A DNA stretch of 19,682 nucleotides, taken from Candidatus Hydrogenedentes bacterium CG07_land_8_20_14_0_80_42_17 (GTDB taxonomy: Bacteria > UBA8481). A program made the translations under genes and the position numbers. Location of the stretch: assembly GCA_002780065.1 (NCBI GenBank), contig PEWQ01000203.1, forward strand, positions 1 to 19,682, in the 5' to 3' direction. Below are positions 2,527 to 2,770 of this stretch, piece by piece. Each line of letters starts with the position of its first letter. Position 1 is the stretch's first letter. A model generated the notes under the pieces. It made no database searches. It had not been told where the DNA came from and saw nothing but the letters and a program-made list of their open reading frames with translations.

Positions 2527-2540
2527 GTAGATACAGATAT

Positions 2541-2569
2541 AAAACAAGGATGGGAGGTGGATTCATGGA
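2541..2569 (+). promoter_or_regulatory. GGA cluster resembling a CsrA-binding site at the small-ORF SD
   Basis: Four GGA trinucleotides fall within 22 nt (2548, 2553, 2559, 2567). The first sits in ACAAGGATG, which matches the core ACARGGAUG of the CsrA SELEX consensus at every position. The second and third overlap the strong SD GGGAGGTGG of the 18-codon ORF and the fourth overlaps its ATG. In known systems, CsrA dimers bind such GGA groups and block ribosome loading, including on flagellin mRNA in Bacillus. No csrA or fliW gene is in the window, so this is inference from sequence pattern only. Confidence 0.35.
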
Positions 2570-2621
2570 AGAATGCCGCATTCAGCGGCGAGATAAATCA
2601 CGTACAATTGTAATAACATAG
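2565..2621 (+). CDS. Candidate 18-residue small ORF in the flagellin leader
   Basis: An ATG at 2565 follows an excellent SD (GGGAGGTGG, 2552-2560) about 32 nt downstream of the predicted transcription start. The frame encodes MEECRIQRRDKSRTIVIT and stops with TAG. The peptide is hydrophilic and basic, with no membrane segment. Codons 4-9 contain a perfect GC-rich hairpin, GCCGC-ATTCA-GCGGC (2575-2589). The SD quality and position argue for real translation. It could be a leader peptide that affects the downstream flagellin, a small protein in its own right, or a fortuitous frame in a regulatory RNA. I recognise no family. Confidence 0.4.
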   Translation: MEECRIQRRDKSRTIVIT

Positions 2622-2727
2622 GCGTTTATTATTGCTTTAACTATTTTTTATTTGGCAATTTTAACGTAAAGGCAATCGACTTTTATATTCGTATCAAATT
2701 AAATTCGATGCGATAAAAAGGATTGGA

Positions 2728-2765
2728 TTCACCACACACAAAAAACAGGTGAAACCAGGGAGGGA
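2728..2765 (+). promoter_or_regulatory. Flagellin translation-initiation region with hairpin and GGA motifs
   Basis: TTCACC (2728-2733) can pair with GGTGAA (2748-2753), leaving a 14-nt loop. The flagellin SD AGGGAGGG (2757-2764) begins 4 nt after the stem. GGA motifs occur at 2720, 2725, 2759 and 2763, the last two inside the SD, which repeats the pattern seen at the small ORF. The arrangement resembles flagellin leaders where CsrA competes with ribosomes, but this has not been demonstrated here. Confidence 0.35.
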
Positions 2766-2770
2766 AAGTC

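Follow-up and report, generated by a model that had tools for sequence, protein, structure and literature searches.

CsrA-type sites at both ends of a flagellin mRNA leader from Candidatus Hydrogenedentes: probable CsrA-FliW control and a possible second layer

In the leader of a flagellin gene from Candidatus Hydrogenedentes bacterium CG07_land_8_20_14_0_80_42_17, GGA triplets crowd around two Shine-Dalgarno (SD) sequences, that of a small ORF close to the promoter and that of the flagellin itself. This layout raises the question of whether the mRNA is controlled by CsrA and, if so, what the promoter-proximal group contributes. We approached it by comparing the window (the whole stretch analysed, 19,682 nt) with the genome it belongs to (207 contigs, 2.39 Mb, 87% complete; the window is contig 93) and with G001, the sole further genome of the phylum compared, which belongs to the same order and another family.

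The leader of about 238 nt proposed in the original prediction is sound. A −35 element (TTGACA, 2498–2503) and a −10 element (TATAAA, 2521–2526) form a strong sigma-70 promoter, and transcription is therefore expected to start near 2533. No sigma-28 box was found in the 350 nt upstream of this flagellin; in the absence of a recognisable sigma-28 promoter, a post-transcriptional checkpoint would be its main one. A search for intrinsic terminators in the leader found none. Rfam likewise returned no family above its gathering score and nothing real at relaxed thresholds, where a match to a Staphylococcus sRNA (E 1.5) was dismissed as chance. Further upstream, after dnaK, positions 2335–2435 hold an inverted GAACCACGAAT...ATTCGTGGTTC with CACGAAT/ACACAAATT units; related words were found in six places of the genome, and G001 has many CACGGAAG..ACACGGAA repeats of a similar appearance.

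The eight GGA triplets lie exactly where they had been described, in two groups (starting at 2548, 2553, 2559, 2567 and at 2720, 2725, 2759, 2763 on the forward strand) with an empty stretch between them and a step of 153 nt from one group to the other. Their number is unremarkable for the composition of the leader, being only mildly above the mean of 5.6 in dinucleotide shuffles (P = 0.116). This speaks for chance, in that two purine-rich ribosome-binding sites would merely happen to contain GGA; GGA-rich SDs are also simply good SDs, which counts against a CsrA reading. What stands out is how the triplets cluster and which letters flank them. Of the ~580 shuffles having at least eight GGA, none contained a gap of 151 nt or more, and four GGA between −52 and +3 were found in 4 of 163 genes from a sample of the genome, the window flagellin among them. 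The minimum-energy fold joins the two clusters in a long-range duplex (z −1.9), which we set aside, since such pairing is expected from the TGGATTCA that both clusters share.

For the flanking sequence, CANGGANG, the published high-affinity CsrA motif (PMC4894983), was judged the right measure rather than bare GGA. It occurs five times on the forward strand of the window (at 2545, 2564, 2756, 7871 and 19121), and three of these fall in the leader, where ~0.03 would be expected from its density in the sampled DNA of the genome (0.117 per strand-kb). Pairs of the motif within bridging distance (~37 nt) exist at 8 places across all 2.39 Mb of the genome, against 20 for a reversed-pattern control, and two of the eight are flagellin leaders (2545–2571 in the window and C17:11293–11322). 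The SELEX consensus of CsrA is RUACARGGAUGU (PMC7652899); ACAAGGATG at 2544–2552 includes ACARGGAUG, and the earlier identification of one leader site with the SELEX core is thus correct. The features of the leader are collected in Table 1.

Table 1. Predicted features of the flagellin leader (window coordinates).
Feature	Position	Strand	Remark
Flagellin promoter, sigma-70-type, TTGACA-17-TATAAA	2498..2526	+	11/12 match to sigma-70
Flagellin mRNA leader, predicted	2533..2770	+	start inferred from promoter
CsrA-type site 1a, predicted, CAAGGATG (CANGGANG; SELEX core ACAAGGATG)	2545..2552	+	motif match, genome-wide pair search
Shine-Dalgarno of small ORF, GGAGG	2553..2557	+	between sites 1a and 1b
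CsrA-type site 1b, predicted, CATGGAAG	2564..2571	+	motif match; over small-ORF start codon
18-codon ORF, predicted, MEECRIQRRDKSRTIVIT-stop	2565..2621	+	ATG 2565..TAG 2621
GGATTGGA, two GGA, 46–51 nt before flagellin start	2720..2727	+	frequent upstream-site place in other flagellins
Hairpin GGAUUCACC / GGUGAAACC, directly before SD site	2725..2756	+	pair probabilities about 0.5–0.67
CsrA-type site 2, predicted, CAGGGAGG, overlaps flagellin Shine-Dalgarno	2756..2763	+	within AAACCAGGGAGGG (2752–2764)
Flagellin gene, 278 aa	2771..3607	+	Flagellin_N E 8.6e-33, Flagellin_C E 2.5e-15 (Pfam)

A CsrA-type control presupposes its regulators, neither of which was in view in the window. The genome holds both, one copy each and adjoining: fliW at C17:10391 (E 5.8e-37) and csrA at C17:10783 (E 9.2e-25, 88 bits), csrA beginning at the end of the fliW ORF. 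With csrA in the genome, its absence, named beforehand as a possible refutation, falls away. The two genes close a run of FlgM .. FlgN-like, FlgK, FlgL, fliW, csrA, in which FlgK and FlgL were assigned by sequence and position, and so follow flgK-flgL as in the Hag-FliW-CsrA system of Bacillus subtilis. Among solved structures, CsrA and FliW come closest to their counterparts in a single FliW-CsrA complex, 5dmb; CsrA aligns over 2–73 with 5dmb_D, the CsrA of that complex, and retains L4 and R44. G001 also has one csrA.

The motif moreover marks the flagellins of both genomes. It stands at −28..−3 in all ten complete flagellins examined, against 5 of 321 other genes (Fisher 8e-16) and, when the comparison is confined to genes with a GGAG SD, 2 of 135 (Fisher 8e-14). 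These values overstate independence because the paralogues are related, and they use background gene starts predicted by a simple rule. A truncated eleventh flagellin also carries it at its SD. In the best flagellin match of G001 (56% identical), the SD is AAACCAGGGAGGG, identical over 13 nt to window 2752–2764. Hairpins with an ANGGAN hexaloop occur in six of the leaders, 7 of them in 1.1 kb, whereas the background of 0.05–0.09 per kb in sampled DNA predicts ~0.1 or less. Across the ten aligned flagellin SD sites the stem covaries (0.50 vs 0.18 shuffled, 0/500; slid controls ≤0.13) around a fixed loop, and in the orthologous pair L051/C17:11329 an upstream GGA hairpin sits 22–23 nt before the SD site with differing stem bases. 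At several paralogues CANGGANG is the hexaloop of a covarying-stem hairpin, though not at the window flagellin's own SD, whose loop has just two possible flanking pairs and no good hairpin. Site 1b may form a bulged hairpin with an AUGGAA hexaloop (closing-pair probability 0.46), with which a GC hairpin at 2575–2589 competes. The idea that the leader GGAs are conserved as loops was therefore not borne out. Still, the motif at all flagellin SDs, the exact conservation, the stem covariation and the presence of csrA-fliW make chance already unlikely as an explanation of the flagellin SD site, and we regard two merely purine-rich ribosome-binding sites as a highly improbable account of the leader. 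Among flagellins of other phyla, 20 of 36 show the SD signature, and many of these have a further copy near −42, as expected for a CsrA mechanism that is known and widespread.

Some of these flagellin loci have features worth recording in their own right. A truncated flagellin at a contig edge downstream of csrA (L053 11293–11381, G000:C17 end; C17:11329) has a CCGGGC-ATGGAT-GCCCGG hairpin followed by an SD hairpin, GGTTC-AAGGAG-GAACC, and its orthologue in G001 keeps the layout with other stem bases. Sigma-70 promoters precede the window flagellin and its orthologue, and sigma-28 boxes (TAAA-N16-GCCGATAA) were seen at several paralogues (L049, L050, L051, L052 compared). Elsewhere in G001 (L109, G001:C72:15505 region), two GGA hairpins, GGCACC-AGGGA-GGTGCC and GATTAC-AAGGAG-GTAATC, precede a 63-codon ORF; the second lies over its SD and marks a probable CsrA target of unassigned function.

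Judged from sequence, CsrA-FliW control at the SD of the window flagellin is well supported and probable. In B. subtilis hag, one leader carries two CsrA sites, one of them over the SD (PMC7652899). The window leader likewise has a CsrA-type site over the flagellin SD and further GGA upstream, and we infer CsrA binding, repression and the same feedback logic, with a FliW switch, from the sites, their rarity, their conservation in one relative and the two regulator genes. As long as unexported flagellin keeps FliW occupied, CsrA dimers would be free to bind CAGGGAGG over the SD and shut ribosomes out. Flagellin export would free FliW, which would remove CsrA and let translation resume. The GGA pair at 2720/2725, ~40 nt upstream of the SD site, is not CANGGANG, and GGA 2725 is partly paired within the hairpin that precedes the SD site; as a weaker partner, this pair may help CsrA at the flagellin SD. 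Such CsrA/FliW control of a flagellin is of a known kind. The less ordinary element is the second, promoter-proximal pair.

Unlike anything in the hag leader, this extra pair lies over a small ORF, ~190 nt from the SD site. Site 1a begins 12 nt into the leader, and the two sites (2545–2571) flank the GGAGG and cover ATG 2565; the ORF, which has an additional in-frame ATG at 2550, gave no Pfam match. The GGA-to-GGA distance is 19 nt, where 18 nt is the stated optimum of CsrA pairs and 21 nt is found in Campylobacter jejuni flaA (PMC4894983). We consider it rather likely that CsrA binds the 5′ pair, which may serve as a leader cistron, in mRNA protection or as a CsrA sponge. The spacing suits one dimer, and a second CsrA dimer would most likely sit here, covering the small ORF's SD and start codon together with the mRNA 5′ end. 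The state of the 5′ end would thereby be tied to the same CsrA-FliW switch. Our confidence in control at the flagellin SD is a judgement separate from the likelihoods attached below to readings of the 5′ pair, which partly overlap and are not shares of one whole.

Conservation of the 5′ sites was judged from two sequences, the window and G001. The orthologue in G001 also has a sigma-70 promoter (TTGACT-16-TATAAT, at −790), with CAGGGAGG downstream of it at −723 and then the hexaloop hairpin GCTCA-ACGGAT-TGAGC, the GGAs being 21 nt apart. The transcript continues with a 99-aa ORF carrying CAGGGAGG at its SD and then the flagellin, with a GGA-loop hairpin at −79. The sequence ACCAGGGAGG occurs once in the window genome, in this leader; of its six occurrences in G001, one belongs to the flagellin and one to the 99-aa ORF that immediately precedes it. 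A sigma-70 promoter with GGGAGG within 12–42 nt was found at one place in the window genome, again this leader, and at two in G001, the orthologue and a purine-rich stretch. Conservation of the GGA motifs, whose lack was the other refutation named beforehand, is thus seen in the one relative compared, from another family, with an identical SD and a 5′ pair in the same relative place. The ORF under the pair is not kept: no homologue of it was found upstream of the orthologue. A candidate relationship with the 99-aa ORF (L059 4972–5271, minus strand, between promoter and flagellin; SD AAACCAGGGAGGG) was rejected, as no homology was seen. For the 99-aa protein, neither a relative in the window genome (E up to 10) nor a Pfam match was found; it ends in VDILG, and a nearby 70-aa ORF ends in VDIIG. 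The doubling of GGA clusters, put forward as a new layout, accordingly stands only in part: the 5′ GGA pair recurs in the orthologue, whereas the small ORF does not, and an upstream ORF with a CsrA-bound SD is not new in general, E. coli iraD/ORF27 being the precedent (PMC5574718).

In the most far-reaching reading, one CsrA dimer would bind the flagellin mRNA at the flagellin SD and another at a promoter-proximal leader cistron whose position is conserved across families. The dimer at the 5′ end would then determine how long the mRNA lives or make it a CsrA sponge, a second layer of the FliW checkpoint for a flagellin without a recognisable sigma-28 promoter; we hold this as quite possible, short of probable. 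In a closely related alternative, also possible and somewhat doubtful, the small ORF is incidental and the bound pair is a stabiliser, as in E. coli flhDC, where CsrA at two 5′-proximal sites guards the mRNA from RNase E (PMC7652899), or a sponge, as in C. jejuni, where the flaA mRNA titrates CsrA (PMC4894983). It agrees with a GGA pair that is kept and an ORF that is not, but leaves aside the well-spaced SD and AUG of the ORF, which the sites cover exactly. The main rival for the 5′ cluster dispenses with CsrA there. Only the flagellin SD would then be a CsrA site, and the cluster would be a ribosome-binding sequence of the STAB-SD type acting against 5′-end decay, with the small ORF translated or not. 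In Bacilli, mRNA is known to be stabilised by a strong SD close to its 5′ end, even if no start codon is present (PMC3997798). The GGAGG lies ~20 nt from the predicted 5′ end, the GGGAGG of G001 is promoter-proximal too, and the leader of another G001 flagellin (L048, G001:C143) also begins with AAGGAGG close to its promoter. However, a ribosome-based stabiliser explains neither the paired CANGGANG at 19 nt, an arrangement with 8 places per genome, nor the ACGGAU hexaloop of G001, and we consider it rather unlikely. Far less likely is coupling, in which CsrA would block the small ORF and the translation of that ORF would open the flagellin SD. For this, iraD/ORF27 offers a precedent (PMC5574718), and the L048 leader may contain a GTG ORF of 16 codons, with AAGGAGG as its SD, that ends in a TGA overlapping the ATG of the flagellin, an iraD-like layout. 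In the window, the small ORF ends at 2621 and 149 nt separate it from the flagellin start at 2771, without stop/start overlap, and most of the flagellin SD is free of pairing in the fold (0.64–0.87), which leaves little to uncouple; coupling is therefore improbable.

Comparison with known systems places the proposed two-dimer arrangement among them. In the 45-nt leader of C. jejuni flaA, two ANGGA stem-loops 21 nt apart both lie at the gene's own SD (PMC4894983). The window leader shares with it CANGGANG sites separated by ~20 nt, one of which overlies a ribosome-binding site, and the presence of FliW; in contrast, its pair with the ~20-nt spacing lies at the very start of a leader 238 nt long. 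As in iraD/ORF27, CsrA-type sites cover the SD of a short upstream ORF, but ORF27 overlaps the iraD start, while here the ORF ends well upstream and the main gene has a site of its own. What it shares with the 5′ end of flhDC and with the Bacillus STAB-SD leaders is a long leader that has a pair of CsrA-type sites, or a sequence resembling an SD, close to its 5′ end; the CsrA-type site at the gene's own SD sets it apart. Among the papers searched, none combined CsrA binding sites with flagellin and a small ORF.

Sequence evidence here extends the CsrA-FliW checkpoint on flagellin to a phylum that is poorly sampled. The signature is present at all flagellins examined in both genomes, among them the sigma-70-read ones that would escape a sigma-28/FlgM checkpoint. 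Furthermore, if the 5′ pair binds CsrA, this leader would be a natural case for separating ribosome blocking, 5′-end protection and titration of CsrA by its target mRNA.
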